DNA of 64,000 bases from Petrimonas mucosa (GTDB lineage Bacteria > Bacteroidota > Bacteroidia > Bacteroidales > Dysgonomonadaceae), in NCBI RefSeq assembly GCF_900095795.1, contig NZ_LT608328.1, forward strand, positions 2,039,001 through 2,103,000. Direction: 5' to 3'. Positions within the stretch are counted from its first letter, which is position 1; the number at the start of each line of letters is the position of its first letter. The translations under genes were made by a program, and so were the position numbers. The notes under the pieces are model-generated. The model made no database searches. It was not told the DNA's origin and was given only the letters and a program-made list of their open reading frames with translations. Positions 20,223-41,820 of this stretch are shown here, piece by piece.

Positions 20223-21567
20223 TACCGCACTCTTTCATCATCTCGATGCAATATTCCAGCTTGCCAAAATCGGAGTTGGAGTTGTTGGTCCCGAACGTGA
20301 ACTTGAGTCCCGCGGCTTTGGCCTTCTGAATGAACGACTTGTTGGGGATTTTATACCTGTGGTTGATCTCCAGCACCTTATTGGTTCTCACCATGGCTTC
20401 GATCACCCTCTCCTGACGTTCATCCGTCCAGAACTCCTCATAACGGTCGTTCATCACATCAGGCAGGAAAGTGGGGTTTACATAGACATCCATCGGTTCA
20501 TCCATCACCTTTACAATATTCTCCACAATCAGGTCCATATACTCCTGTTCATTGTCGATAAATACCTCTTCCGGGATCCAGAGGCGGGTTCTGTTGCCTT
20601 TGCGGTCGGTAAAGGTCATCGCATCGGTAAATACGTAATTGAACAGGTTGCGAACCTCCGGCGAGAAGGTTGTCGGCCATTCGCGTCCCTCTCCCTGCAT
20701 AGCCTGAATAAAGGGTTCTCCCTTCATCCGTTCAAAATATTCCACCACCTCGGCATCGTTTTGGATGGGAAATCCGATACCGCAGTTGGGAGCCAGCGCA
20801 TAGTTGATACCGTACCGGCGTGATTGAGACTTGGCCAGCTCCAATGTCAGGTCCTCCTTCAGATGAACGTGATAATCGAGCACCGGAAAATTGGCCTGGT
20901 GCAACCTGATGATCCCGTCGGTCGATTCGTCGATCGCCTCGGCAAGCTGGTTGCTGATCAACGCCTTTTCGACCTTCAGCGGCGTCATCTCAACAGATCG
21001 TATCTCGATGACACCTTCGGTACCTTGAATGGAGATCGTGCCCTTGGAAAGGATTTGCGACCGGTTCTCCGGTGTGCGGTACGGTTGGGCGGGTTCGATA
21101 TACTCTACCAGCAACTGATCGTTGACTGCCACCTCGATCTTTTTACCCTCTACCCTTATACGCAGGTCGAACCACTCATTGTCATCAACAATCGATTTTA
21201 CAAGGTTTCTGACCGACAACAAACTTCCCGTTTTTGTCCACCACTCCGGGTGGTCCGTATCGTTATCGAGGGCAACGGCATAACCGCCATTACCGTTTTC
21301 ATCTGTATGAAAGCGAACCTCCCCCTTCCCCTTTTCCACCGTTCTTGCCGTTACTAGCAGTTCAAAATCGGTGAAGGTCGCGTTCTTCAAGGTCATCTTT
21401 CCGGCATCAGCCATGCCGATTACCGAATCGGAAAGGTTAACCGTCCCTTCTGTCAGCCAACCAGCCAGATTCCCCCCGTCGAAGAGGATCCTCTTCTTCT
21501 CCTGTTCTCCACAACCCGAAATGAGAAGGATGAGAACAGAGAGCAAGGATAACATCATTTTACCCAT
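20188..21567 (-). CDS. Lipoprotein fusing a DUF1080 domain to a PHP/amidohydrolase-like domain
   Basis: 459 residues. A lipobox ending in SGC (Cys 19) indicates lipid anchoring. Residues about 27-205 match the DUF1080 concanavalin-like domain (FDGGNLAGW, WFDLRIRVEGKKIEVAVN), known from 3-keto-disaccharide hydrolases. Residues about 225-459 form a metal-hydrolase-like domain that starts VLDYHVHLKED and ends with TFGTNNSNSDFGKLEY. Its second half may hydrolyse a phosphate or amide; which is unknown. The porin gene lies 28 bases upstream on the same strand, so uptake and processing of one substrate is plausible. Two fused domains of this kind are unusual. Confidence 0.75.
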   Translation of the reverse strand: MGKMMLSLLSVLILLISGCGEQEKKRILFDGGNLAGWLTEGTVNLSDSVIGMADAGKMTLKNATFTDFELLVTARTVEKGKGEVRFHTDENGNGGYAVALDNDTDHPEWWTKTGSLLSVRNLVKSIVDDNEWFDLRIRVEGKKIEVAVNDQLLVEYIEPAQPYRTPENRSQILSKGTISIQGTEGVIEIRSVEMTPLKVEKALISNQLAEAIDESTDGIIRLHQANFPVLDYHVHLKEDLTLELAKSQSRRYGINYALAPNCGIGFPIQNDAEVVEYFERMKGEPFIQAMQGEGREWPTTFSPEVRNLFNYVFTDAMTFTDRKGNRTRLWIPEEVFIDNEQEYMDLIVENIVKVMDEPMDVYVNPTFLPDVMNDRYEEFWTDERQERVIEAMVRTNKVLEINHRYKIPNKSFIQKAKAAGLKFTFGTNNSNSDFGKLEYCIEMMKECGITAQEMYKPNL

Positions 21568-23225: not shown

Positions 23226-24239
23226 TTAATCGGCAAAAAACTGTTCGAACCCCTCGGAATAGGCAATGTCGAGGGTGCTGTCTGCTTTCACATAAATGAA
23301 ATAGTAGTGCAATCCGGGGATCTTGCTGGCGATCTCTTTCGACTTTTCCAGTCCCGAAGCCATGAATGCCGTGGCGTAGGCATCGGCGGTCATGCAATCA
23401 TCGGCAATCACGGTTGCTCCCAGGATATCCTGTTCCGACGGGTAACCGGTCTGTGGATCGATGGTGTGGGCATACTTCCGCCCTTCCTTCACATAGTAGT
23501 TACGATAATTTCCCGATGTGGCCAACGCCTTGTCGCAAAGCGACAGGATGGTCTGAAGTTCATGCTGCAATCCGGTATTGTCGTCAATCGGCCTGTCCAC
23601 CCCGATGCGCCAACATACCCCTTTGTCGTTCACCCCTTTGGCCACTATTTCACCTCCGATCTCAACCATATAGTTTTCAACGCCGTAGCTATCCAGTAAC
23701 CGGGCAACCAGATCGCATGAGTAGCCCTTTGCAATGGCAGAGGTGTTTAATTGTACCCTCGGATCTGACTTGACCACATTGCCTTCATTGTCGATCCATA
23801 TCTTCTCATAGCCTACAAACTGCTTCAGGCTGTCGATAATTTCCGGCGTAACCTTATCGATGTTCTTGAACCCGAATCCCCAAGCATCGATAAGGGGTGA
23901 AGCGGTAATGTCGAATTTGCCTTCACTTACCCTCGACACCTCCATCGCCTTGGAGAAAACCTCCATAAAGAGCGGGTCGGGTTTCACCGGGAGATTGTTG
24001 TTTATGTTGGTAATCACCGTATTCTCCCTGAAGGGGTTCAGGGAGTGTTCAAATCGCTCCAGTTCTGCCAGGATCTCATTTTCCAGCGACTCTCCATAGG
24101 CATATTTGATGTGGTAGGAGGTATGGAAGATCTCGCCACTGTTATGGTGGTATGAGTAGTTACCGCCCTTCCGTGCCGATTGGCATGAAGTGAGCAGCAG
24201 CAGGAGGATCACTCCTGAAAATATTTTTCCTAAACCCAT
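23226..24239 (-). CDS. apbE: FAD:protein FMN transferase (ApbE) lipoprotein
   Basis: 337 residues. The leader ends LLLTSC (Cys 19), so it is a lipoprotein. The ApbE core is present: AWGFGFKN, AIAKGYSCDLVARLLD, VEIGGEIVAKG and a magnesium-binding TADAYATAFMASG. It attaches FMN to threonine in partners such as NqrB/NqrC and RnfG. No nqr or rnf gene is in this window. Its start overlaps the end of the nitroreductase gene by 10 bases. Confidence 0.93.
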   Translation of the reverse strand: MGLGKIFSGVILLLLLTSCQSARKGGNYSYHHNSGEIFHTSYHIKYAYGESLENEILAELERFEHSLNPFRENTVITNINNNLPVKPDPLFMEVFSKAMEVSRVSEGKFDITASPLIDAWGFGFKNIDKVTPEIIDSLKQFVGYEKIWIDNEGNVVKSDPRVQLNTSAIAKGYSCDLVARLLDSYGVENYMVEIGGEIVAKGVNDKGVCWRIGVDRPIDDNTGLQHELQTILSLCDKALATSGNYRNYYVKEGRKYAHTIDPQTGYPSEQDILGATVIADDCMTADAYATAFMASGLEKSKEIASKIPGLHYYFIYVKADSTLDIAYSEGFEQFFAD

Positions 24240-27653: not shown

Positions 27654-27715
27654 CCTCCCATGCGTTTCGCCACTGTAATATGTAATATGCAGACGTGACG
27701 CATGGGAGGTTTTTT
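27654..27715 (+). terminator. Strong intrinsic terminator after uraA
   Basis: A perfect 12-base-pair stem, CCTCCCATGCGT (27654-27665) with ACGCATGGGAGG (27698-27709), followed by TTTTTT at 27710-27715. The T-tract reaches the stop codon of the convergent Gfo/Idh gene. Confidence 0.92.
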
Positions 27716-28695
27716 CACTCCATCCTACCCAGTATCATGTCCATCGCCCGGTTGGCACGCAATGCGGAACGAAAATCGCTCACGGGGTAAGGCCCCTTGC
27801 CGTTCAGGTAGTTCACAATGCTTTGAATCAGATAAAACTGGATATTGTCGGGATTCTCCTCCACAAAGATCTTCTCTCCAGAGACACCATTCAAGACGAT
27901 GGGTGTAAAATGAAAGGTAGAAAAGCGGATTGAACCTTTCGAACCCAAAATCTCGATCGTATCGGTACGTTCTTTCACGGGAGCTGCAAACTCCCAATGG
28001 CCACGGCCCTTTACCCCCGAGCTGTGCAACCACCTGCCATCTACCGTATCTTCCACATCGTACAGTCCGGCCCTGTTTGCGGTTGTTCCGTGCGCTTCAG
28101 TGATCTCGCCGAAAATAAAGTCGAGATAATCCAGCTGATGCGAAGCCAGGTCGTAGAAATAGCCTGCACCCGACAGCTCCCTCTTTACCCGCCATGACAG
28201 GGTCTCCCTGTTCAGATCGGATGGATAGGGAGGAATGACAAACTCGATTCTCACTTCACTCGCCACCCCTATCTCGCCACTCTCCAGCAACTGCCTTACC
28301 CGCAGAAAATAGGGCAATGTCCGGCGGTAGTAGGCCACAAAACAGGGGACGCCGGTCTCTTCCGCCACTCTTGCCATGGCCATGCAAGCTTCAGATGAAG
28401 CGGCCATCGGTTTTTCGACATAGACCGGTTTTCCCGCCTTCATCGATGCCACGGCATATTCGTCATGCGATCCGGGCGGCGTGGCGATATAGACCGCATC
28501 CACCGAGGGATCATTGATCAATGCGTAGGCATCGGAATACCATCTGGCTATCTTGTGCCGTGTTGCATAATCCTGGGCCAGAGCGGCATCCCGACGCATC
28601 ACTGCTACGATATCCGACTCCTCGACCTTACGGAAAGCCGGGCCGCTTTTCTTTTCCGTCACGTTGCCGCAACCGATGAATCCCCAATGAATCAT
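27715..28695 (-). CDS. Gfo/Idh/MocA family oxidoreductase (cytoplasmic)
   Basis: 326 residues without a signal peptide. GFIGCGNVTEKKSGP is the Rossmann NAD(P) loop, and EKPMAASSEACM carries the conserved Lys-Pro. A C-terminal alpha/beta domain has YFYDLASHQLDYLDF with the catalytic His region. It oxidises or reduces a sugar or polyol, substrate unknown. It starts 3 bases after the ccsBA stop codon, so it is co-transcribed with a cytochrome maturation gene, an odd pairing. Confidence 0.88.
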   Translation of the reverse strand: MIHWGFIGCGNVTEKKSGPAFRKVEESDIVAVMRRDAALAQDYATRHKIARWYSDAYALINDPSVDAVYIATPPGSHDEYAVASMKAGKPVYVEKPMAASSEACMAMARVAEETGVPCFVAYYRRTLPYFLRVRQLLESGEIGVASEVRIEFVIPPYPSDLNRETLSWRVKRELSGAGYFYDLASHQLDYLDFIFGEITEAHGTTANRAGLYDVEDTVDGRWLHSSGVKGRGHWEFAAPVKERTDTIEILGSKGSIRFSTFHFTPIVLNGVSGEKIFVEENPDNIQFYLIQSIVNYLNGKGPYPVSDFRSALRANRAMDMILGRME

Positions 28696-28698
28696 ACC

Positions 28699-31140
28699 TT
28701 AAATTGTCTTGTTTTCTTCAACTTTACTGTTCATTTTTCGATATCCTCTGAAGGAGATCGTGGCCAAAGCGATTATTCCGGCCAGGGCCGCATAGAGGTA
28801 ACCGAAGGTCTCCGCTACCCCCTCATTCTCCCCGTAGGAGTGCAATCCGCTCAGGAGGTAGTTTACCCCCCAGAATGTCATCAGCACCGAGGCAAACGCC
28901 AATACCGATGCAAGATTGAAAAACCAGTCGTTCTTCAGCCTCTTCACCAGGTGGGTATGGGTAACCACGGTATAACAGACAACCGTAATGAGTGCCCAGG
29001 TCTCCTTGGGATCCCAGCTCCAGTAACGCCCCCACGATTCGTTGGCCCAGATGGCTCCCAGGAAGGTGCCGACGGTCATCAGTGCCAGCCCCACCAGCAA
29101 CGACATGTTATTGATAATGGTCAGTTCCCTGATAAGGAGTTGCTGTTTACGTTTTCTCACCATGCACATCATCAGCATGTTGGTCAGCCCCAGCAACAGG
29201 CTGATCCCGAAGAAGCCATAGGCTGCTACGGTCACCGCCACATGAAACATGAGCCAGGGAGATTTCAGTACGGGCACCAGTGTGGTGATCTGCGGTTCCA
29301 TCCAGCTCAGGCTGGAAACAAAGAGGATAATGCCACCGAAGAGGGTTGCCGTAGCCAGGGTGAGGTCGTTGCGCCGGCCAAAGACAAGGCCTGCCAGCAA
29401 TGTCGCCCAGGCAACATAGACCATCGTTTCGTACGAATTGCTCCAGGGTGCGTAACCCGATATATACCCACGCATGGCCATCCCGTAGCCGTGATAAAGG
29501 AATAGCAGTACTACTCCCAAACCGAGTAACTTGAAGAGCACTCTTGTCCACGTTACCTCTCTGAAGAGCCGTAAAAAGGCCACAACAAGCAGCAGAAATC
29601 CCAACAGGAGGTATCCGTTGCGGGCTTTGTCAAAAAAATGCTGACTGTTGTATCGGATCTCCGCCTCAATCTTCTTCGGATTGATCAGTTCGCTCCGGTC
29701 TCCCTTTCGTTGAAAGCCGGCAATTGAATCGAGCAATGCCTGTGGCTGTTGCCAATCTCCATTTTCGAGTGAGCGGCGCACTTCCGACAGGTAACTGGAA
29801 AAGATGGTGGAGACGAAGAGGGAGTCGTTGTCGGTAAAAGGCAACAAATCATCGCCCGGAGCATACCAGTCATGTCCGGTCTCATTCTCATTCGGAAAGA
29901 TTGCCATCAGTTTATGGTTCAGCAGGAGGAAAAGGATGTTCACCTTTTCGTCGAGCTTGATGATATCCTTGTCCAATTCGTTGCGCTGCGACTCCGGTTT
30001 GTGGTAGGCCTCGTTTACATGGGCAAGCAGCTTGTAGTTGCCCTCCGGATCAAAGAGCTGTGCATAGGCAAGATCCCCTTCCGGCAACCCTAGCATCCTG
30101 GCCAGCTCTTCGTTAGAATTGGCAATAAGGGGCACCTGCATCCAGATTTGCGGCATGGTGAGCAATCCCAACAGGAACTGGTCGGAATCAAGATCGCCGA
30201 TACGGTTCTGCTTGTGTACCTTTCTCAGCAGATCGGACGAGAAGGTGTTCATCGGCATGATCCGTCCACCGAACTGGACCGGCAACTTGCCGAATTGTGC
30301 CGCATGTTCCGTCGGGACTGCATTTCGCTGTAAGGCCTGCATGACTGCAGATGTACCCTTGTCCTGTGCACTCGTGCCGATGGTCAGCATCGTGAAGATG
30401 GCTGTCAACATCGCCGTACGTCTCAACTCGTTCAACTGGCGGTTCAGTTTTCTCAAGCGTGAATTTGGAGTGACAAACATCAGGAGAAACCCTGTAATCA
30501 ACAGAAAGTAGCCTGCGTAGGTAATGTTGCGCCCAGCCACATCCTTGTTGACAGATAAAACCGTGCCCTGTTCATCCTCGTCGTACGAAGCCTGGAAAAA
30601 TCGGTATCCGTCGAGATCGAGTACATTGTTCATGAAGACTCGGGCTTCACGCACCTCCCCGTCGATATGAATCCTCAAATCGCTTTCGTAAGAAGAGGGA
30701 CTCGAGGAGCCGGGATACCTGATCAGACTGAACCGGACAAGCTCCAGTTTAAAGGGTAGCTCCTCCTTGAAGACCCCTTTCGACGTATGCATGACCATTA
30801 GATTGCTCGTCTCTCCCTCGCGCAGGTGGATTGTTCCCTCTTTTCCAAAGAGATGTGTTGTCAAAGCCCCTGCAAGGATAACAACAAGTGCGGCATGGAT
30901 GACGGTAAGCGCCCACCGTCCCCTTTTGGCATACCGGTGATCGATAAATATCAAAACGAAATTTACCACCAGCAGGAACTGTATAAAGAAGAAAACGGGA
31001 GAGTAATAGATAATCATCTTGGCCGCTTCGGTGGTCATCACCTCTTCAACAAAGGTAGCCAGCGCCATCAGGAAGGCGTAAATCAGCAGCAGGACCAGTG
31101 TGGTTTTATAGGATGCGAGAAGTTGTCTTAAATTTTCCAT
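28699..31140 (-). CDS. ccsBA: Fused ResB-CcsA cytochrome c synthetase (System II)
   Basis: 813 residues. The N-terminal part (about 1-230) is ResB-like with three or four helices; a periplasmic stretch of about 250 residues follows. The C-terminal part (about 510-790) is CcsA-like, with the haem-handling WWD-type motif in WANESWGRYWSWDPKETW and nearby His residues. It exports haem and attaches it to CXXCH motifs. The tetraheme protein at 33697-35289 is a ready client. A structured leader precedes it and a Gfo/Idh gene follows after 3 bases. Confidence 0.93.
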   Translation of the reverse strand: MENLRQLLASYKTTLVLLLIYAFLMALATFVEEVMTTEAAKMIIYYSPVFFFIQFLLVVNFVLIFIDHRYAKRGRWALTVIHAALVVILAGALTTHLFGKEGTIHLREGETSNLMVMHTSKGVFKEELPFKLELVRFSLIRYPGSSSPSSYESDLRIHIDGEVREARVFMNNVLDLDGYRFFQASYDEDEQGTVLSVNKDVAGRNITYAGYFLLITGFLLMFVTPNSRLRKLNRQLNELRRTAMLTAIFTMLTIGTSAQDKGTSAVMQALQRNAVPTEHAAQFGKLPVQFGGRIMPMNTFSSDLLRKVHKQNRIGDLDSDQFLLGLLTMPQIWMQVPLIANSNEELARMLGLPEGDLAYAQLFDPEGNYKLLAHVNEAYHKPESQRNELDKDIIKLDEKVNILFLLLNHKLMAIFPNENETGHDWYAPGDDLLPFTDNDSLFVSTIFSSYLSEVRRSLENGDWQQPQALLDSIAGFQRKGDRSELINPKKIEAEIRYNSQHFFDKARNGYLLLGFLLLVVAFLRLFREVTWTRVLFKLLGLGVVLLFLYHGYGMAMRGYISGYAPWSNSYETMVYVAWATLLAGLVFGRRNDLTLATATLFGGIILFVSSLSWMEPQITTLVPVLKSPWLMFHVAVTVAAYGFFGISLLLGLTNMLMMCMVRKRKQQLLIRELTIINNMSLLVGLALMTVGTFLGAIWANESWGRYWSWDPKETWALITVVCYTVVTHTHLVKRLKNDWFFNLASVLAFASVLMTFWGVNYLLSGLHSYGENEGVAETFGYLYAALAGIIALATISFRGYRKMNSKVEENKTI

Positions 31141-31248
31141 ATTTATTTGATATTGAAAAACCGGTACCGCGGCACTTCACCTGGATGGTGCCCTTAACGG
31201 CCGGAGAGCCGGAGTGACGTTGTCACTCCCCTAGCCCGCACAAAAATA
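31141..31248 (-). promoter_or_regulatory. Structured 5' leader of ccsBA with promoter and terminator-like hairpin
   Basis: On the minus strand a TATTTTTG -7 element (31248-31241) starts a leader of about 95 bases. A perfect 8-bp hairpin comes first (31211-31218 with 31222-31229, 3-base loop). A second structure pairs 31201-31204 with 31161-31164 and 31198-31200 with 31167-31169, enclosing GGCAC/GTGCC (31171-31175, 31188-31192), and ends in five U about 15 bases before the ATG. This order, stem then terminator then gene, suggests control by transcription termination; a separate short RNA is an alternative. Confidence 0.45.
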
Positions 31249-31283
31249 TAAAAATAAGCGGTTGAACCACTATATAAAACGAT

Positions 31284-31317
31284 AAAAATCCCCGAAACGG
31301 ATGCTCCGGGGATTTTC
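31284..31317 (-). terminator. Intrinsic terminator of the cytochrome/Gfo/isomerase operon
   Basis: AAAATCCCCG (31285-31294) pairs with CGGGGATTTT (31307-31316) in a 10-bp stem; read on the minus strand it ends in a run of T. It lies about 40 bases after the isomerase stop codon and separates this operon from ccsBA. Confidence 0.85.
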
Positions 31318-31356
31318 AATATCAGCTAAATGTTTCTGATTGATCACATTTCCATA

Positions 31357-32280
31357 TCATGCCTCTTTCCATTGTTTTCTCAACAACTCGAGTGCTGCCG
31401 GGACAACCACCTTCCGGTCGCCCTGGCAACCACATTCAAAGCTGACATATTTATTGTAACCGATCATCTTCAAACCTTTGAATCCGCTTACATAATTATC
31501 GGCCTCACCATCTTCACCAGGCATGCTGCGCCGTTTACGGCTGGCCATATGTACATGCTGCAGGTACTTGCCGGCAGAGAGGAAAGCGGCCATATCGCAG
31601 GTCTCCTCCCAAGTCATGTGCCAGAAGTCGCCCAGGCAGGTTACTCCGGGATTGTTGATGTCACGGCAGATCGAAGCTGCATCGGCAACTTGACGGAGAT
31701 AGAAAGCCTCTTTGCGGTTCAGCGGCTCCAGAATTACGGTTGTTCCGTGCTTTTGGGCAATGTTGCCCATCTCGTTGAACTGTTCGCAGAGGAAGTCACG
31801 GGTCTCCTGGGTATGCGGCATGACCGGTACCTGCGAGTTGAATGCCGGTACAATGATAACGCCCGTTGAACCAAGTTCACCCGCCAGGATAATCAACTCT
31901 TCCATCGTATCGCGACACTTCTTGCGAATTGCCGGATCGGTGGAGAGAATAAATCCCTCAAAACCGGCGCAGATGGCACTCACACCGATATTCCGACCCT
32001 TCAACGCCTCCTTGAACTCCTTCATCCGACCCTTCAAACCCTTACCATGGGGTTCGAAACCCACTACGCCATGTTCTTCCATAAAGTCGAACTTCTCGTT
32101 TAAGGTTGCCCCGGGGGCGGTACCTTCCTGAAACGAGATCTTGAGCTCAGCCTTGATTGGATAAGTTGGCGGAGCTCCTGCCGGAAGCTCCCCTGCAGAG
32201 GCGGCCAGGGTGTTACCCAAACCTACCGCGGCAGCGCCGGCAAGTGATGATTTGATGAATTTTCTTCTGTCGATCGTCAT
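31357..32280 (-). CDS. Tat-exported sugar phosphate isomerase/epimerase family protein
   Basis: 307 residues. The leader has a twin-arginine motif, DRRKFIKSS, with an AXA-like cleavage near residue 28, so it is folded in the cytoplasm and exported. The TIM barrel of the xylose-isomerase-like family follows; VILEPLNR, CLGDFWHM, QHVHMASR and SFECGCQG give the Glu-Asp-His-Glu metal site. Such proteins act as isomerases, epimerases or, in keto-sugar pathways, as lyases. It is the third gene of an operon after an exported Gfo/Idh, 14 bases apart. Confidence 0.87.
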   Translation of the reverse strand: MTIDRRKFIKSSLAGAAAVGLGNTLAASAGELPAGAPPTYPIKAELKISFQEGTAPGATLNEKFDFMEEHGVVGFEPHGKGLKGRMKEFKEALKGRNIGVSAICAGFEGFILSTDPAIRKKCRDTMEELIILAGELGSTGVIIVPAFNSQVPVMPHTQETRDFLCEQFNEMGNIAQKHGTTVILEPLNRKEAFYLRQVADAASICRDINNPGVTCLGDFWHMTWEETCDMAAFLSAGKYLQHVHMASRKRRSMPGEDGEADNYVSGFKGLKMIGYNKYVSFECGCQGDRKVVVPAALELLRKQWKEA

Positions 32281-32294
32281 GATGATTTATACTT

Positions 32295-33671
32295 TTACTT
32301 TTTGTTATCGCTTCCCGGTACAGGCACAGTAAATCGGCTCATGTCCATCTTGCCGATGTTCAGGTCGGCCGGGGTATAATCCAGCTGAGCGGCGGCGATG
32401 GCATCCCAGGTTGTCTCCTGGCCGGTGTAGGCTGCTTCGCGTCCCATGATGGCGCCCAGGTTGGAGATCGCCGTTTCGGAGGCCTGCTCGATGGGGGTAT
32501 TCTTCCGGATACAGTTGATCAGGTTCACATGCTCCAGCGTGTAGGGGTCGGTCTGCTTGAAGTTGGCCTTCTCCGCCTCGCCGTCATACTGCCAGATCAC
32601 GTTGCCTGCCAGGTCCCTGATCACGTGTCCGCCCTGGCTGGTCCATGATCCTTTCGTCCCCTGGATGAACTCGCTCACGTTGTTGGCGCATCCGTCGATC
32701 TGGCGGCACATGCTGTGCAGGTGTATGCCGTTCTCCATGGTGAAGTCGACGCTGAAGTTGTCGTACTGGTCGCCCGTCACGCGGCGCTGGCGCGAACCGA
32801 AGGCCACCGCCTTCACCGGCTTCAGACCGCTGAACCAGGTGAACACGTCGATGTTGTGCACGTGCTGTTCCACGATATGGTCGCCCGAAAGCCATTTCCA
32901 GTTCACCCAGTCGCGGACCATGAATTCGAAATCGCTCCATCCCGGTTGGCGTTCACGGTACCAGAGCATGCTCTGGTTCCAGTAGACGACACCGCCGGTG
33001 ATCTCGCCGATAAGGCCGTTCATGATCTGCTTGTAGGACTCCACATAGGCACGCTGGTGGTGACGCTGTGTCCCCGTAACCACGCAGAGGTTCTTGGCCT
33101 GGGCCTGCTTGGCGGCAGCCACCACCGTGCGGTAGCCGACCGAGTCGACGCAGATCGGTTTTTCCAGGAAGCAGTGCTTGCCCTGCTCAACAGCATACTT
33201 GAAGTGCTCTGCACGGAAGAAGGGGGGCGTACAGTCGATCAGGATGTCGATCCCGCTGTCGATCACCTGCTTGTAGGCATCCAGCCCCACAAACCGCCTG
33301 TCGGCCGGAATGTCGATGTTCTTTTCAGCCTTAAGCTTGTCGGCCAGGCCGTTCACCTTGTCCTCAAAAACATCGCCCAGGGCTACGATCGTAACGCCGT
33401 TGGCCGCATTCAGGAAGTTGATGGCGGCACCCGATCCCCTGCCTCCGCATCCCACGACGCCGGCTTTCAGTTCCTTGCCGTCGGAGGCCAGATCCACCAG
33501 TTCCGGTACATAGTAGCTTCCCGGTTCCTTCAGGGGGGTTGTCGCATCCTTCTTGCCACTACTGCATGAGCTTAGAAAACCGGTCGTGCCGGTACCGATC
33601 ATGCCTGCTGCTCCGGCCACCGCCGAAGTCTTAAGAAATCCCCTTCTTGTCAAATTGTTTTCTCTTTTCAT
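32295..33671 (-). CDS. Tat-exported Gfo/Idh/MocA oxidoreductase lipoprotein
   Basis: 458 residues. The leader has TRRGFLKTSAVAG, a strong Tat motif, and then FLSSC, a probable lipobox, so it is likely anchored on the periplasmic side with cofactor already bound. AGVVGCGGRGSGAAIN is the Rossmann loop and EKPICVDS the conserved Lys-Pro motif; VEQHVHNIDVFTWF follows in the catalytic domain. Exported relatives hold NAD(P) tightly and cycle it internally. It lies between a tetraheme membrane protein (25 bases upstream) and a sugar isomerase, which suggests periplasmic carbohydrate oxidation. Confidence 0.88.
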   Translation of the reverse strand: MKRENNLTRRGFLKTSAVAGAAGMIGTGTTGFLSSCSSGKKDATTPLKEPGSYYVPELVDLASDGKELKAGVVGCGGRGSGAAINFLNAANGVTIVALGDVFEDKVNGLADKLKAEKNIDIPADRRFVGLDAYKQVIDSGIDILIDCTPPFFRAEHFKYAVEQGKHCFLEKPICVDSVGYRTVVAAAKQAQAKNLCVVTGTQRHHQRAYVESYKQIMNGLIGEITGGVVYWNQSMLWYRERQPGWSDFEFMVRDWVNWKWLSGDHIVEQHVHNIDVFTWFSGLKPVKAVAFGSRQRRVTGDQYDNFSVDFTMENGIHLHSMCRQIDGCANNVSEFIQGTKGSWTSQGGHVIRDLAGNVIWQYDGEAEKANFKQTDPYTLEHVNLINCIRKNTPIEQASETAISNLGAIMGREAAYTGQETTWDAIAAAQLDYTPADLNIGKMDMSRFTVPVPGSDNKK

Positions 33672-33696
33672 ATCGTTTAATCTGTTTTAGAAATGT

Positions 33697-35289
33697 TTAT
33701 TTTGCAATCAATGAACTGTCGGGCTCACACACCACCCTGAAGCCGATACCCTTGATGTCGGAGTACCACCAGATGCTTTTGGGTTGTTGCGGGTCGGTCT
33801 TCAACCAGTCATCATGCCTGGTATGGCTACGGGCAGCAACCCGGAGGTCGGCAGCATCCGACAGGTAATTTCCGCCTCTTACTACCCACTCCTCACCTTC
33901 AGTAACCAGCGGATCCCTGGTTGTTCCGCTTCTTTTTCCATAAGCAGCCTCATCATACTTGTCGGCACAGTACTCCATAACATTCCCAAGCATGTTCTTC
34001 AATCCGAAGGGGTTGGGTTTCACCATGGAGGGTTCCTGCGTACGGTTATCACTGTTCTTGCTGTAGATGACAAAGGCGCTTATGCTGTCTGTTTTTGCCG
34101 GGAAGAATTTCCGCATAAAGCCCGTATCGGAAAAATCCTTGGGATTTCCTGCAAAGAAATAGGGTGTCTGTGTACCTCCCCGTGCCGCATACTCCCATTC
34201 AGCCTCAGTGGGCAGGCGATATTTCTTGCCTGTCTTGTGTGACAGCCACTGGCAGAATGTTTCGGCAGCGTAGTGGGTCATCGTGATAGCGGGCCTGTCA
34301 CCCGAACCCCAACCCTGATCGGGGTATCCGAACGGAGGCGTTGGACCGGAGATAGCATCCACTCCCATCGCCTTCAGGTTGTTTTCATAAACCACTTCGG
34401 GCGGTGTCCTCCCTTCGCTCATTGTGCTGGCATAGAATGCCCAATACTGGTCCCAAGTGGTTTCAACCTCCGCCATGAAGAAGGGACTCACCGCCACCTC
34501 ATGCTGGGGGGCTTCGTCCGGCTTGTGGAAGGGCTCCTTGGGTGTGCTGCCCATCATGAATGTTCCTCCGGGTATCGCCTTCATATTGAAAGAAATGGCC
34601 GTACCTGGAATCTGCTCCGTATAGTCTTCAAATGCGGTAACGGTAGCCGGTTCCTTATAGAAGAGGCTGGAATCTACCACAGCACTCACATTCATCCCGG
34701 GTATTCCCACCATCTGTCCATGAACATAGTTCGGATTGTAGTGTCCTACATCGAGATGGCAACTGATGCATTGAAGGTCCAATTTCTCATGATTCTCATC
34801 ATAATACATGTGCGCGGTAATGCCATCGTCGGTTATTCCCTGCGGAAAGAGGTTCTGATGACACTTGACGCAAGAGGCGTTCGGAATATATTTTACTGCA
34901 TGCTCCAGTTCAGATTTTTTGTCCCAGTCGAAATCGGCACTGTCCTTGGTCAGATATCCCCAAAGGTCGCGGATGCCCAAAGAGGCCTTGGCTGTATAGT
35001 GAGCCCACGTATCATCCTTTGGAGGCAGGTGGCAGTCCACACAGTTGACCATCACCCCACTCCCGTTGTTCACGTGAACGGAGAGCTTCCAGCTCTCCTC
35101 GGCATGAGGATGAACATGGCACATCATGCACGATTCATTGGTAGAGAAATAGACCGAAGTCTGGTACAGTGTACCGATAAAGGTTATACCGATAACTATG
35201 CCCAATAACAGAATAAAACCTTTGCGTTGATGAATTTTTTTTCGGCTGTTTCTGTGTCGATCACCATAGATGTTTTTAGATTTAGCCAT
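33697..35289 (-). CDS. Membrane tetraheme cytochrome c (NapC/NirT-like) fused to an FGE/SUMF1-like domain
   Basis: 530 residues. One transmembrane helix (24-44) is followed by four CXXCH haem motifs: CMMCH 54-58, CVDCH 83-87, CVKCH 140-144 and CISCH 174-178. From about residue 238 a formylglycine-generating-enzyme-like domain begins (IPGGTFMMGS, YRLPTEAEWEYAARGG, LGNVMEYCADKY, WVVRGGNYLSD). The paired catalytic Cys of true FGE enzymes are absent here (RGGNYLSDAADLRVAARS), so sulfatase activation is unlikely. The N-terminus resembles quinol-oxidising NapC/NirT cytochromes that feed periplasmic partners. It is first in an operon with the Tat-exported Gfo/Idh and isomerase. Confidence 0.88.
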   Translation of the reverse strand: MAKSKNIYGDRHRNSRKKIHQRKGFILLLGIVIGITFIGTLYQTSVYFSTNESCMMCHVHPHAEESWKLSVHVNNGSGVMVNCVDCHLPPKDDTWAHYTAKASLGIRDLWGYLTKDSADFDWDKKSELEHAVKYIPNASCVKCHQNLFPQGITDDGITAHMYYDENHEKLDLQCISCHLDVGHYNPNYVHGQMVGIPGMNVSAVVDSSLFYKEPATVTAFEDYTEQIPGTAISFNMKAIPGGTFMMGSTPKEPFHKPDEAPQHEVAVSPFFMAEVETTWDQYWAFYASTMSEGRTPPEVVYENNLKAMGVDAISGPTPPFGYPDQGWGSGDRPAITMTHYAAETFCQWLSHKTGKKYRLPTEAEWEYAARGGTQTPYFFAGNPKDFSDTGFMRKFFPAKTDSISAFVIYSKNSDNRTQEPSMVKPNPFGLKNMLGNVMEYCADKYDEAAYGKRSGTTRDPLVTEGEEWVVRGGNYLSDAADLRVAARSHTRHDDWLKTDPQQPKSIWWYSDIKGIGFRVVCEPDSSLIAK

Positions 35290-35368
35290 CTATCTATTAA
35301 TTAGTTAATTGAAAGTTTAATTGTTGTTTTAAAATTGTGTATAGAAAAAAACGAAAAAGTTTTGCTTG

Positions 35369-35376
35369 CAAATATA
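35369..35376 (-). promoter_or_regulatory. Promoter -7 element for the cytochrome/Gfo/isomerase operon
   Basis: TATATTTG on the minus strand fits TAnnTTTG and would start transcription near 35362, about 70 bases before the ATG. It lies 64 bases from the IS30 end, so the core promoter survived the insertion. Confidence 0.5.
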
Positions 35377-35448: not shown

Positions 35449-36408
35449 TTACATTAATTGTTTGTAAAACTCAACTTTGGGTGTGTTAAAGTCCAATTTT
35501 TTCCTCGGTCTTTCATTCAGCCTGTGCTGTATCCGCTTCAATCTGTCGGGTGGATAGTCCTTGAAGGACGCCCCCTTGGGGATGTATTGCCGGATGAGCT
35601 TGTTCGCGTTTTCGATCGATCCTTTTTGCCATGCCGAATAGGGGTCGGTGAAGTACACCGGGGCTTCCAGCATCTCCGTGATCCGTTCGTGCGCCGCGAA
35701 CTCCAAGCCGTTGTCCGTGGTGATCGTCCTTATCACGTCCTTGTAGGGTAGCAACATGCGGCACAGCACCTTGGCCAACCCTTTCGAGTCCCTTCCGCGG
35801 GGCAGTTCCCCGATCATCACGAGGTTCGTCTTCCTTTCCGTCACCGTCAGTATCGCCTCCGACTGGTCGGCCCCTATCATCGTGTCCATCTCGAAGTCGC
35901 CGAAGCGCTTCCCGTCGGCCTCCACGGGCCTTTCCCGGATGCTCCTGCGGTTGGGGATGTCTCTAACGGAGCCCACCGGTCTCTTGCGGTGCTTGAGCCT
36001 GTGATGGCAATGCTTGTAAAGGTCGCCCCCGGCCTTCTTGTCCTCCCGGATCCACTTGTAGATGGTCTCGTGGGAGACCCGGATATTCTCCTTCTTTCTC
36101 AGGTGTCCGCTGATTTGCCCGGGCGACCAGTCCTTGCGCACGAGCCGGATCACCTTTTGTTTGATCCATTCCGGGGTGGCCCGGTTGCCGGGCAGGCGTT
36201 CCCTTCTCTCCATCGCCATCTCGTGGGCCAGTCGCCACGAGTAGCCCCCGCGCTTGTCCTTGTTGCGCTGCAACTCCCTGGACACCGCTGAAGGACTGAC
36301 ACCTATCAAGCTCGCGATCGTCCGCTGGGTGTCACCGTTTTCTAAACCTAAATAAATCGCGTACCTTTGTTCTGAAGTTAACTGTTTGTATTTTTTCATA
36401 AGCAACAT
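35449..36408 (-). CDS. IS30-family transposase
   Basis: 319 residues, full length. An N-terminal HTH (TQRTIASLIGVSPSAVSRELQRN) binds the inverted repeats. The DDE domain has all three acids: FEMDTMIG, TTDNGLEF and SIENANKLIRQYIPKG, the last being the IS30 signature. Start could be 36408 or the Met three codons in (36399). It cuts and joins the element ends and tends to prefer symmetric target sites. No frameshift is present, so it should be functional. Confidence 0.96.
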   Translation of the reverse strand: MLLMKKYKQLTSEQRYAIYLGLENGDTQRTIASLIGVSPSAVSRELQRNKDKRGGYSWRLAHEMAMERRERLPGNRATPEWIKQKVIRLVRKDWSPGQISGHLRKKENIRVSHETIYKWIREDKKAGGDLYKHCHHRLKHRKRPVGSVRDIPNRRSIRERPVEADGKRFGDFEMDTMIGADQSEAILTVTERKTNLVMIGELPRGRDSKGLAKVLCRMLLPYKDVIRTITTDNGLEFAAHERITEMLEAPVYFTDPYSAWQKGSIENANKLIRQYIPKGASFKDYPPDRLKRIQHRLNERPRKKLDFNTPKVEFYKQLM

Positions 36409-38478: not shown

Positions 38479-39171
38479 TCAGAGGGAGAACCTGTTCCCC
38501 GATGCGATAAACTCGTCGTACTTCTGCCGGTTGAAGGTATAGTAGAATGCTCCTCTTTTGGAGGAGGATTTGTCTTTAATCTCCAGCCTGTCGAGTATTC
38601 CCATTGCGGCAATCTTCTTCCGGAAATTACGTTTGTCTACCGGCATCTGGTAAATGGCCTCCCAGAGGTCTTGCAGTGACGGGAGTGTGAATTTTCCCTC
38701 GAAGAATTCAAAAATGATGGGCTGGAGGGAGACTTTAAACCTCAGCAACTGTAATGCGTCGTCCACCATGCGGTTATGGTCGAAGACTAGGCGTGGCAGC
38801 TGATGAATATTCACCCACTTGGCATCGAAGGCGCTGGCCAGCGTCGTATCGAACTCCTCCAGCCGTACCAATGCATAGTAGGCCACCGAAACTACCCGGT
38901 CGCCCGGATCCCGTTCAACTTCACCGTAGGCTCCTACCTGTTCCATGTAAATCCCCTTTTGACGGGTATAACGGAACAGCACCTTCTCTGCGGCTTTGTC
39001 GAGGCTTTCGTTCTCATCCATGAAGCCGCCCATCAGTGACCATTCACCCTTGTTGGGTTCAACCGGCCTGCGGGTCAACAGAATACTCAGTTCCTGGTTC
39101 TTGAATCCAAAGATGATGCAATCAACAGCAACAAGAAATTTCGCATCGTGTGGGTAAAATCCGGCAGGCAT
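38479..39171 (-). CDS. Nudix-type sugar regulator (NrtR/AraR-like), catalytically degenerate
   Basis: 230 residues. Residues 10-140 are a Nudix fold; residues 150-225 are a winged-helix-like domain (PVDKRNFRKKIAAMGILDRLE). In the Nudix box the leading Gly and first Glu remain but the REXXEE core is KVLFRY, so hydrolysis should be lost and the fold probably senses a ligand. Nudix-type regulators of this build control arabinose and NAD genes in Bacteroidetes. It lies downstream of galM-gluP-galK, which makes galactose genes the likely target; that is inference. Confidence 0.82.
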   Translation of the reverse strand: MPAGFYPHDAKFLVAVDCIIFGFKNQELSILLTRRPVEPNKGEWSLMGGFMDENESLDKAAEKVLFRYTRQKGIYMEQVGAYGEVERDPGDRVVSVAYYALVRLEEFDTTLASAFDAKWVNIHQLPRLVFDHNRMVDDALQLLRFKVSLQPIIFEFFEGKFTLPSLQDLWEAIYQMPVDKRNFRKKIAAMGILDRLEIKDKSSSKRGAFYYTFNRQKYDEFIASGNRFSL

Positions 39172-39174
39172 AAT

Positions 39175-39201
39175 ATTAGATATTAATTAGATATTAATTA
39201 G
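39175..39201. repeat. 11-base direct repeat upstream of the Nudix regulator
   Basis: The unit ATTAGATATTA occurs twice (39175-39185 and 39186-39196) plus a partial third copy, directly before the regulator start. It is AT-rich and may be a regulatory site for the gene itself. Confidence 0.75.
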
Positions 39202-39215
39202 GGTTCCAGATGCGG

Positions 39216-39237
39216 GGGGCGGTCAACTAACCGCCCC
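39216..39237 (-). terminator. Hairpin after galK
   Basis: GGGGCGGT (39216-39223) pairs perfectly with ACCGCCCC (39230-39237) around a 6-base loop, 19 bases after the galK stop codon on the minus strand. It has no T-tract, so termination may be partial and the Nudix regulator may get some read-through. Confidence 0.55.
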
Positions 39238-39255
39238 TCTCCACCTGTTTTTATG

Positions 39256-40404
39256 TTAAAGTTTACGTGCACCGTCGCTGATAACGACATCGTACACCTT
39301 GGGCTCATGCCCGAATTTATCCTTGAATTGACGTTTGGCGTCAGCGATGAACGAGTCGTACAGTTCATCCTTTACAAGATTGATGGTACAACCTCCGAAG
39401 CCGCCTCCCATGACACGGGAACCTGTGACTCCATGCTCCCTGGCCACACCATTCAGGAAGTCTAGCTCTTCGCAGCTCACTTCATAGAGCTTGCTCATTC
39501 CGTGATGCGTCTCATACATTTTCGCACCTACAGTTTCGTAATCACCACGTTCCAATGCATCGCTCACCTCCCTTACACGTTGGGTCTCCTCGATCACATA
39601 TTTGGCCCGCATGTAATCCTCTTCCGAAATCTCCTGCTTCACCTCGTCGAGCATCTCCATCGTAGCATCACGGAGAAACTTCACCTCGGGATGACGTTTG
39701 GCGATGGTGGCAGCGGCATGTTCGCACGACTCCCGCCGTTTGTTATAGGCCGATGAGGCCAGCTCATGCTTTACGACGGTGTCGAGCAACACCAGTTTAT
39801 ACCCTTCGGGATTGAATGGAAAGTACTGGTATTCCATCGACTTGGTATCGAGACGGATCAGATGGCCTTTCTTGCCGAAAAGCGATGCAAACTGGTCCAT
39901 GATGCCACATTTCACCCCCACATAGTTGTGCTCGGTGGACTGTCCGATCCGTGCCAGCTCGAAGGTATCGATTCCCAGATTGAGCATATCGTTCAGCGCG
40001 AAAGCGTAGGTGCTTTCCAGCGCCGCAGAGGAGGACATCCCTGCACCCAGCGGCACATCGCCGGCGAAGACAGTGTCGAATCCTGCAACTTTTCCGCCCC
40101 GTTTGACGATCTCGCGGCACACCCCGAAGATATATTTTGCCCACCCTTCCTTGGGCAAATCCTCCTCATTGAGGCCGAATTCCGAACATTCGTTCAGATC
40201 GATGGCGTAAGCCCGTACCTTATCAGTTCCATTTAACCGGATCGCTGCAACCATCCCCTTGTCGATGGCGCCAGGGAATACAAAACTCCCGTTATAATCG
40301 GTATGTTCACCTATAAGGTTTACGCGTCCGGGAGACGCGTAAACTTCAGGTGTATCGTTACCAAATTTTTCTTGATAGACTTTTAAAACCTGTTCTTTAG
40401 TCAT
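39256..40404 (-). CDS. galK: Galactokinase
   Basis: 382 residues from the ATG giving MTKEQVLKVYQEKFG; a frame up to 40434 lacks family support. GRVNLIGEHTDYNGS binds galactose, GAGMSSSAALE is the GHMP-kinase ATP loop, and MGGGFGGCTINLV is the third GHMP motif. It phosphorylates galactose at C1, the first step of the Leloir pathway. It is third in the galM-gluP-galK operon, 64 bases after gluP. Confidence 0.97.
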   Translation of the reverse strand: MTKEQVLKVYQEKFGNDTPEVYASPGRVNLIGEHTDYNGSFVFPGAIDKGMVAAIRLNGTDKVRAYAIDLNECSEFGLNEEDLPKEGWAKYIFGVCREIVKRGGKVAGFDTVFAGDVPLGAGMSSSAALESTYAFALNDMLNLGIDTFELARIGQSTEHNYVGVKCGIMDQFASLFGKKGHLIRLDTKSMEYQYFPFNPEGYKLVLLDTVVKHELASSAYNKRRESCEHAAATIAKRHPEVKFLRDATMEMLDEVKQEISEEDYMRAKYVIEETQRVREVSDALERGDYETVGAKMYETHHGMSKLYEVSCEELDFLNGVAREHGVTGSRVMGGGFGGCTINLVKDELYDSFIADAKRQFKDKFGHEPKVYDVVISDGARKL

Positions 40405-40468
40405 GTTATTACAACTATTTAATTGTTTCTTCACTGCCCGGAAAACCGGACGTCATCGCCGAAGAGAA

Positions 40469-41770
40469 TTACTCTTCGGTAGAGATATTCTTGTTTACAT
40501 TCTTCGATCCGATCAATGCATAGTACAAGAGATAGGCGAGACCGGCGAAGATTACCCAATAGCTTACCAGGTAGTTGTTGCCGGCATCTGCAACGGCACC
40601 CTGGATAGCAGGCAAGATTCCGCCACCGCATACCAGTGTCATGAAGATACCGGAAGCGGCCGGGGTGAATTTGCCCAACCCCTCGACAGCAAGGTTGAAG
40701 ATGCTTCCCCACATGATTGAGGTGCAGAGGCCAATGATTACGAGGAACATGGCATTAATGGGCACCTGCGCCATGCCAAAGGAGAGGGCTCCGGTAGCGG
40801 AAGTCTGGAGAGCAGGGATGGCCACCTGAGTAGTGGTGGGCGAGAAGATGGCAGCCAGCACGAGAATCAGCCCCACCGTAGATACACTGGCAAGCATGGT
40901 TTTGCTGGAGATCTTGCTGCCCAGCGAAGCACCCAGCAGACGGCCCACCAACATCAGGAACCAGTAGGTACCTGCAACAAATCCGGCCGTAGTCTTACCA
41001 ACCGGGGTGTCGGAAAGCCAGAGAATCAAGATGCCGGGAGTTCCCACTTCAACACCTACATAGAGGAAGATGGCGATGGCACCCAGAATGAAATGTTTGA
41101 ATTTCAGGGCGCCGCTCATCAGCTTCTTTAACGGCTCCTTGGTGGTTGTAGCATGAGGTTCGGGAATGTTTACAATCAGCATCACAAAGAAGACCAGTGC
41201 AAAGACACCCATTGCGATGTACATTACCGGGAATACGTCCTTGATGTTTGCTTTTGCAGCTTCACCAATCAGAATACCTACAAAAGCAGGAGTAAAGGTA
41301 GCCATCACGGAGTTGAACGATCCGCCAACCTGAATAAGCTGGTTACCCTTGTTTCCTCCTCCTCCCAACGTGTTCAACATGGGGTTGACCACCGTATTGA
41401 GCAGACACATGGAGAAACCGGCAACAAAAGCACCAAGCAGATAGACACCAAATGCGCTTGTATGCGAGGCGTGACCGGAGAGAAACTGGATAAATACGCC
41501 CAAAAACCCAATTGCAATCGCAATCAGCGCAGTTTTCTTATAGCCCACGCGCTGCAGAAGGATTCCACCGGGGATACCCATGACGGCATAAGCGATGAAG
41601 TTTGCCATATTACCCAACAATCCCTGGAAGTTGGAGGCGCCGAACTGTTCTTTCAATACTTGTCCCATCGGTGCTGCCAGATTGGTTACGAATGAGATCA
41701 TTCCAAACAGTGCGATCATCATGATAATGGGCACTATCCGGTTGCTTTTCTGATTAGTTGTTGTATTCAT
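40469..41770 (-). CDS. gluP: Glucose/galactose MFS transporter (GluP type)
   Basis: 433 residues from the ATG giving MNTTTNQKSN; the longer frame adds a non-matching leader. There are about 12 hydrophobic segments. The FHS-type family (fucose/galactose/glucose) is indicated by AVMGIPGGILLQRVGYKKTAL between helices 2 and 3 and FSMCLLNTVVNPMLNTLGG in helix 4. It imports galactose or glucose with protons or sodium. It lies between galM and galK, spaced 50 and 64 bases. Confidence 0.92.
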   Translation of the reverse strand: MNTTTNQKSNRIVPIIMMIALFGMISFVTNLAAPMGQVLKEQFGASNFQGLLGNMANFIAYAVMGIPGGILLQRVGYKKTALIAIAIGFLGVFIQFLSGHASHTSAFGVYLLGAFVAGFSMCLLNTVVNPMLNTLGGGGNKGNQLIQVGGSFNSVMATFTPAFVGILIGEAAKANIKDVFPVMYIAMGVFALVFFVMLIVNIPEPHATTTKEPLKKLMSGALKFKHFILGAIAIFLYVGVEVGTPGILILWLSDTPVGKTTAGFVAGTYWFLMLVGRLLGASLGSKISSKTMLASVSTVGLILVLAAIFSPTTTQVAIPALQTSATGALSFGMAQVPINAMFLVIIGLCTSIMWGSIFNLAVEGLGKFTPAASGIFMTLVCGGGILPAIQGAVADAGNNYLVSYWVIFAGLAYLLYYALIGSKNVNKNISTEE

Positions 41771-41820
41771 ACTTGTTGATATTATTAAAAATGTTAATCT
41801 ATTTTTGAACAATCTCGTTT

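Follow-up and report, generated by a model that had tools for sequence, protein, structure and literature searches.

An FGE-like and Gfo/Idh gene pair in Bacteroidota and the fusion of its FGE-like member to a tetraheme cytochrome: a possible electron outlet for exported sugar enzymes?

Introduction

How could a nicotinamide-dependent sugar enzyme that works outside the cytoplasm, and thus faces a cofactor-renewal problem, be served? This question is raised by three genes of Petrimonas mucosa, which lie within a window (the whole stretch of DNA analyzed here) of 64,000 nucleotides, positions 2,039,001–2,103,000 of NZ_LT608328.1, from a genome of 3.72 Mb in a single contig. The genes, all on the minus strand at 31357-35376, encode CYT, a membrane tetraheme protein fused to an FGE-like domain, GFO, an exported oxidoreductase of the Gfo/Idh superfamily, and ISO, a sugar isomerase-like protein. 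An exported Gfo/Idh enzyme must either recycle its nicotinamide cofactor internally or hand the electrons on, and a first-pass annotation of this DNA suggested that periplasmic sugar oxidation is linked to the electrons of the membrane. That annotation missed that the FGE-like domain, with the cysteines of FGE lost, is the conserved partner of GFO. Based on the evidence below, we give about an even chance to the view that the operon encodes a sugar redox module outside the cytoplasm in which the tetraheme domain is the electron outlet.

Conservation of the operon and its core

Is the three-gene order a peculiarity of one strain? A scan of genome contigs found 457 relatives of CYT, and the locus counts given here concern the best 80 of them, which include the genera Petrimonas, Proteiniphilum, Fermentimonas, Seramator, Parabacteroides, Dysgonomonas and Tannerella. 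In 74 of these loci the sequence runs on for 700 bases or more beyond CYT, and the next gene is GFO in every one; where it runs on for 3000 bases or more (67 loci), GFO and then ISO are found in 66, and only L099 departs from this. The order, which Proteiniphilum acetatigenes and Parabacteroides goldsteinii also carry, is thus not strain-specific but is shared among bacteria of gut and sludge, and the conservation of the operon is far beyond chance. Genes for SusD, a SusC-like protein, a GH2 beta-galactosidase or GFO3, a third, signal-less Gfo/Idh, are found upstream of CYT in 29 of the 62 loci whose upstream flank exceeds 4 kb (the SusC label is ours, from position and sequence, and SusD, GH2 and Gfo/Idh were assigned by domain scan). 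Therefore, many copies stand in a glycan-use setting. The window copy has no such block upstream, and an IS30-type transposase stands there.

Then, which part of the operon is shared most widely? We searched a phylum sample of 395 Bacteroidota genomes with CYT (E <= 1e-40) and GFO (alignment E <= 1e-60). The CYT query matched in 37 genomes, near full length in three (the window genome, G407 and G405) and only within or near the FGE-like part in 34; in the 23 of these 34 stand-alone genomes that were inspected, the FGE-like protein has no NapC match. GFO is present in 64 genomes, including all 37 with an FGE-like match (37/37 vs. 27/358; Fisher 5.6e-35, ignoring kinship), and in 25 of the latter 27 genomes the gene immediately before GFO is a more divergent FGE-like one. 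An FGE-like gene directly precedes GFO, in the same order and on the same strand, in 57 of the 64 genomes and adjoins it in any orientation in 59, and none was found beside GFO in the remaining five (G074, G194, G218, G309 and G431). GFO immediately follows the FGE-like gene in 26 of the 30 fused genomes (in the other four, the contig ends there) and in 29 of the 34 stand-alone genomes. The FGE-like partner of GFO is mostly a separate protein. The conserved core is the FGE-like domain together with GFO, not the cytochrome, and it is very probable that the two act in one process. It should be noted that the agreement of the FGE-like and GFO trees for G309/G431 and G242/G194 was not counted as evidence of coupling, because these genomes come from the same families (f37, f31) and the agreement reflects shared descent.

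FGE-like proteins of the same subfamily also occur beside YceI-like genes, at L150:9559-17861 and L152:9498-12117. The L150 protein is adjacent to PSCyt1/DUF1549/DUF1553/DUF1501 genes, the L152 protein is adjacent to ApbE, and L152 also has open reading frames (ORFs) of similar length with heme motifs. These loci are a second heme- and flavin-linked setting of FGE-like proteins. The idea that their FGE-like genes are companions of nitrite reductase (NirV) was rejected, given the PSCyt1/DUF1549/DUF1553/DUF1501 neighbors at L150 and a literature search that found nothing on NirV together with FGE.

In the window, the three co-directional genes are separated by gaps of 25 and 14 bases in the ORF list, and the hairpin downstream of ISO, which ends in a T tail, closes the unit, so the operon-like unit stands as first annotated. 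As for its proposed single promoter and single terminator, the terminator is strong. Terminator-like sites in the region are no commoner than in shuffles (9 found vs. 9.7 expected), and the hairpin downstream of ISO has the longest stem among the nine. A box of the TAnnTTTG type, TATATTTG, which we take to be the Bacteroidetes -7 element, is located 87 bases 5' of the CYT start; however, a promoter here is only plausible, because such boxes are common across the window (50 found vs. 27.8 expected).

The tetraheme domain and its fusion

The annotation of CYT as a NapC-like tetraheme protein fused to an FGE-like domain is borne out by its PF03264 and PF03781 matches and by four CxxCH motifs, at residues 54, 83, 140 and 174, preceded by one hydrophobic helix seen at the N-terminus. 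Is CYT then simply an NrfH? Like NrfH and the NapC/NirT proteins (TIGR03153, PF03264), it has the N-terminal membrane helix, the four CxxCH motifs and the matching domain, but it differs in a CxxCHVH motif, in the FGE-like fusion, in the lack of a terminal reductase in the operon and in its score with the NrfH model TIGR03153, 68.8 bits, which does not reach the cut-off of 134.2. Each of the 33 aligned CYT sequences (window included) has all four CxxCH motifs, and the first motif is CxxCHVH in every row. CxxCHxM at heme 1 is typical of NrfH, and the NrfH of the same genome has CVNCHVM, whereas the 10 fusions aligned (window included) have CxxCHxH, which suggests that the axial ligand of the first heme of CYT is changed relative to that NrfH. 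A further motif, DPQxPKSxWW, occupies residues 499-508 just beyond the FGE-like domain. The AlphaFold model of CYT was unusable (mean predicted local distance difference test score, pLDDT, 45.6), and no claim is based on it.

The 10 fused FGE domains sampled constitute one branch (Shimodaira–Hasegawa-like approximate likelihood ratio test, SH-aLRT, 96), so that, judging from this tree, the tetraheme domain was added by one fusion event. The fused and stand-alone genomes also differ in their oxidases. A COX1-family match of at least 450 bits is found in all 34 stand-alone genomes vs. 1 of the 30 fused ones (G018, 87% complete); two other fused genomes, G405 and G050, have matches of 416 and 397 bits, and the remaining 27 have either no match or matches that do not exceed about 220 bits; such low-scoring proteins may be nitric oxide reductases or belong to other branches. 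The concentration of fusions in genomes without a strong heme-copper oxidase match would also fit a reductive role, in which electrons flow from menaquinol through the tetraheme domain and the FGE-like domain to a keto-sugar or organic oxidant from GFO and ISO, that is, anaerobic respiration of a sugar derivative. NapC and NrfH normally oxidize quinol and feed periplasmic reductases, in agreement with such a role. However, Pfam finds no known terminal reductase fold in the operon, and reduction of a keto-sugar by menaquinol should, on general knowledge, be unfavorable or marginal, and we regard this explanation as improbable.

Alternatively, CYT could be a general quinol dehydrogenase for some other periplasmic reductase, such as NrfA, with its co-transcription due to the history of the locus. 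The NrfH-like score of CYT and the occurrence of NrfA in 16 of the 30 fused genomes are consistent with this, but the other 14 have no strong match (24 bits in G405 and 21 bits in G057), and nine of them have a completeness of 90% or more and a contamination of 5% or less. In addition, the window genome contains a separate NrfA with an adjoining NapC-family gene, an nrfHA-like pair, elsewhere, Pfam finds no nrfA partner gene in the operon, and the pairing of FGE-like genes with GFO is far wider than the fusion. Consequently, CYT is not simply the partner of NrfA; the idea that it is a second NrfH was ruled out, and a general dehydrogenase role is very improbable.

GFO, ISO and the sugar chemistry

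What might the two sugar enzymes do? That GFO is a Gfo/Idh lipoprotein exported by the twin-arginine translocation (Tat) pathway is confirmed by Pfam (PF01408 Rossmann domain, C-terminal domain and Tat signal), by the twin-arginine signal itself and by a lipobox-like SSC at C36. The residues EKP (170-172) and E268/H272 are invariant in 26 of 26 aligned GFO sequences (window included), and the structural model has the Gfo/Idh fold, with a mean pLDDT of 72.8, which is moderate and was used for the fold class only. The first-pass annotation also referred the enzymes to the families of 3-keto-glycoside breakdown. This holds for the Gfo/Idh superfamily but not for the BT_2158 family, since GFO reaches 26 bits with the glycoside 3-dehydrogenase model NF058561, against a cut-off of 750, and is not a member; the BT_2159 family model does not match GFO either. 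Therefore, 3-keto chemistry is a superfamily-level guess only. The Bacteroides 3-ketoglycoside enzymes (BT_2158/BT_2159; PF06439) likewise combine a Gfo/Idh with partner enzymes, often in a SusC/SusD-like setting, but the present operon lacks a PF06439 gene (one is elsewhere in the window) and its GFO falls outside BT_2158/BT_2159.

ISO is of the sugar isomerase type, as was proposed, with a xylose-isomerase-like TIM barrel (PF01261, 104.5 bits) and a Tat-type signal whose score is marginally under the Pfam cut-off (21.7 vs. 22.7). Its orthologue in the PDB is 3KWS (3kws_A, E=7e-149, 264 residues, 498 bits), which is named as putative only and to which ISO adds the Tat-type signal. The second match, 6WN6, a 3-keto-D-glucoside 4-epimerase of the YcjR type, is distant (83 bits). 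The candidate metal ligands of ISO are E185, D218, H244 and E282 (E-D-H-E), with roles and spacings that we presume from ketose 3-epimerases; given the similar spacings, ISO should be an active metal enzyme. At L268:1-7000 (contig G017:C127), four GFO-family genes stand in tandem, the first of them truncated where the contig ends, and are followed by an unlabelled ORF and then by ISO; no cytochrome match was found in these first 7 kb of the 11.6 kb contig.

ApbE near GFO

Could a flavin take part? ApbE is described as the flavin mononucleotide (FMN) transferase of extracytosolic electron transfer, with the target motif [ST]GA[ST] (PMC8238504). Of the 64 GFO genomes, 38 have an ApbE gene no more than 3 kb away from a GFO copy, which concerns 39 of 110 copies; if a genome of 4.3 Mb has two ApbE genes, chance would give about 0.4 copies. 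Such proximity occurs in 19 of the 34 stand-alone genomes, and among the matches listed it is absent from all 14 fused genomes, out of 30, whose coordinates were compared (some ApbE matches of G006, G009, G013 and G030 are outside that list). In the window genome, the only PF02424 match reported is 8.2 kb from the GFO-CYT pair and is a possible partner. Three same-genus genomes have an ApbE match at 7-9 kb. GFO and CYT were ruled out as ApbE substrates by motif; the sole match, SGAA (SGAA/TGAA) in GFO, is the nucleotide-binding loop of the Rossmann domain.

Weighing the redox reading

How might the parts work together? According to a study of PvdO, this FGE-like protein is a putative periplasmic oxidoreductase, needed for a periplasmic oxidation and inactive when purified, which may need an electron transport system; its electron route has not been clarified (PMC6206403). 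Given the cofactor dilemma of an exported Gfo/Idh and these properties of PvdO, the FGE-like domain is therefore proposed as the redox partner of GFO. GFO would be exported folded via Tat with its nicotinamide cofactor and would oxidize or reduce a sugar ring carbon, and ISO would isomerize, epimerize or eliminate the keto-sugar. The FGE/PvdO-like domain would most likely handle the second redox step, either renewing the cofactor or oxidizing or reducing an intermediate. Oxygen-respiring Bacteroidota would have a free FGE-like protein and some other outlet (O2 or a flavin linked to ApbE); in anaerobes of the Bacteroidales type, a single fusion joined the domain to a tetraheme quinol/quinone oxidoreductase like NapC or NrfH, and the fused form would exchange electrons with the menaquinone pool. 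Several parts of this scheme are inferred: a catalytic role of the FGE-like domain, the identity of the cofactor, electron transfer between the hemes and a partner, the direction of this transfer, the lifestyle and the substrate. The earlier suggestion of a link to membrane electrons thus finds indirect support, in the 57/64 pairing, in one NapC fusion mostly in genomes without a strong heme-copper oxidase match and in ApbE near GFO, but its electron path stays conjectural. We lean slightly toward the view that the tetraheme domain carries electrons for the FGE-like/GFO process.

Several observations weigh against this reading. The FGE-like domain of CYT aligns with the FGE structure 6s07 and other PDB matches, and the positions of the two 6s07 cysteines, which we take to be catalytic, correspond to a Ser and a gap in CYT; by eye, the pair is in none of 33 aligned rows, 10 of them from fusions (window included) and 23 from proteins that stand alone. 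FGE-type catalysis is therefore unlikely, and an active FGE that matures sulfatases was ruled out. CYT thus shares with FGE/SUMF1 the PF03781 fold family but lacks the cysteine pair. Among NCBIfam models, the FGE-like part of CYT is matched best by GldK/PorK, a structural lipoprotein of the type IX secretion system (93.2 bits), above PvdO (NF051459, 80.6 bits), so the domain may be non-catalytic. PvdO is the best-scoring named oxidoreductase model, with up to 133 bits for the stand-alone relatives scanned, against a cut-off of 500.

The copies of GFO point the same way. A second GFO of the genome (G000:C1:452921-454280; L220:8921-10280), which the first-pass annotation overlooked, is 99.5% identical to window 32312-33671 over 1360 bp, which is virtually the full length of its reading frame, and is a recent duplication or gene conversion. 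Its locus adjoins GFO3, GH97 and SusC/SusD-like genes and has no CYT; consequently, the window GFO may act without the cytochrome, or both copies may share CYT in trans. Two further GFO-family paralogues (46%) in the genome have no FGE-like or CYT neighbors, and the GFO tree has several branches with members that lack FGE, so that the partnership can be lost or regained. The same-genus genome G002 likewise has two GFO copies, with equal scores. As for flavins, ApbE flanks a second GFO copy and not the FGE-linked one in several genomes, so that its link is to the GFO family; the ApbE target motif occurs in neither CYT nor ISO, and no flavin site that could bridge a hydride carrier and one-electron hemes was seen in the operon proteins. 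Moreover, no count given here is corrected for relatedness, and the pattern of fusion and oxidase is confounded with phylogeny, because nearly all fused genomes come from the order of the window genome.

Finally, Gfo/Idh enzymes like glucose-fructose oxidoreductase recycle their cofactor internally, so that an outlet may be needless. Could GFO then run a closed cycle in the manner of glucose-fructose or aldose-aldose oxidoreductase, its cofactor staying tightly bound, with ISO using the product, the FGE-like domain a non-catalytic scaffold that binds sugar or protein, and the cytochrome an anchor or the servant of an unrelated electron partner? Both of these oxidoreductases are among the many Gfo/Idh structures matched by the GFO model, and the top rank of GldK/PorK and the GFO copies without CYT or FGE would be accommodated. 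However, such a cycle leaves unexplained both the retention of the four heme motifs by all 33 aligned sequences and ApbE beside GFO in 38 of 64 genomes, and we consider it unlikely.

Neighboring genes

The features of the window are listed in Table 1. The gene ccsBA was first annotated as being next door with a linked role. It is indeed adjacent in the window, but it follows ISO in only 27 of the 62 CYT loci with room, and the linked role is not supported. Since the terminator separates it from ISO and a box of its own, TATTTTTG, precedes it at 31241-31248, ccsBA is probably a separate transcription unit; membership in the operon was ruled out on the terminator and the adjacency count, and it is best read as a heme-maturation neighbor.

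Table 1. Features of the operon and its surroundings in the window.
Feature	Position	Strand	Evidence
CYT, 530 residues, membrane-anchored tetraheme NapC/NrfH-type protein with FGE/PvdO-like fusion	33697..35289	-	ORF, Pfam
NapC/NirT N-terminal domain of CYT, residues 21-187	34729..35229	-	PF03264, 93 bits
FGE-like (SUMF1/EgtB/PvdO) domain of CYT, residues 238-491	33817..34578	-	PF03781, 130.9 bits
GFO, 458 residues, Gfo/Idh oxidoreductase with Tat signal and lipobox	32295..33671	-	Pfam, alignments, model
ISO, 307 residues, Tat-type sugar isomerase/epimerase-like TIM barrel	31357..32280	-	Pfam, 3kws_A match
Intrinsic terminator 3' of ISO	31283..31318	-	16-pair hairpin, fold z-score -3.6
TATATTTG, candidate -7 promoter box of the operon	35369..35376	-	TAnnTTTG motif type, not specific alone
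ccsBA, 813 residues, fused ResB-CcsA cytochrome c maturation protein	28699..31140	-	Pfam
GFO2, Gfo/Idh without signal match, after ccsBA	27715..28695	-	Pfam; kept in many ccsBA-bearing loci
ApbE-type FMN transferase	23226..24239	-	PF02424

Just upstream of the promoter-like box is the IS30-type transposase gene, at 35449-36408 (HTH_38 and rve matches; the IS30 label is ours), where two same-genus genomes hold GFO3. Farther upstream, sugar transporter-like, galactokinase-like and NUDIX-type regulator-like genes (38479-41812, minus strand, named by eye) suggest a galactose locus near the operon. On the other side, about 10 kb from the operon, a lipoprotein-like gene (20188-21567) encodes a 3-keto-disaccharide hydrolase domain (PF06439) at the N-terminus and a C-terminal half that has no match. 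In other genomes, mostly Parabacteroides, a gene with a weak match to the iron-sulfur repair protein RIC (46.6 bits vs. a cut-off of 204.7) follows ISO in 34 loci, for example at L074:9964-11265, and in 32 of these it is followed by a LuxR-type regulator.

Relation to known systems and implications

Has such a system been described before? The LacABC type of periplasmic 3-dehydrogenase is a flavoprotein with a cytochrome subunit, whereas the present operon pairs a nicotinamide-type enzyme with a NapC-FGE fusion. What the two have in common is membrane-bound periplasmic sugar oxidation, as reported for LacABC of Caulobacter and Pedobacter (PMC9007349). PvdO (NF051459) is FGE-like as CYT is, and its electron route has not been clarified (PMC6206403); unlike PvdO, CYT is linked to a Gfo/Idh and not to a siderophore (pyoverdine), has its own cytochrome and scores far below the 500-bit cut-off. 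Neither the fusion nor the FGE-like/Gfo-Idh pair was found named in search listings of the open PubMed Central literature, a search that slashed family names may escape and that leaves subscription literature largely outside, which is weak evidence of novelty. That the cysteine-less FGE/PvdO-like protein and the Tat-exported Gfo/Idh are a widespread and undescribed periplasmic redox pair, in which an FGE-like oxidoreductase would use O2 or flavin in aerobes or, via one fusion, a tetraheme menaquinone oxidoreductase in anaerobes, is put forward as a tentative and rather doubtful proposal.

The fusion, which occurs in gut genera such as Parabacteroides, combines an FGE-like domain with a quinone-type cytochrome in a single chain next to its Gfo/Idh partner, so that the renewal of the cofactor and the electron route of PvdO-type proteins could both be tested on one operon. 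If the proposal is true, CYT would be the first case of a respiratory chain built into an FGE-like enzyme, sugars would be respired outside the cytoplasm, and a respiratory dimension would be added to the use of polysaccharides by anaerobic Bacteroidota.

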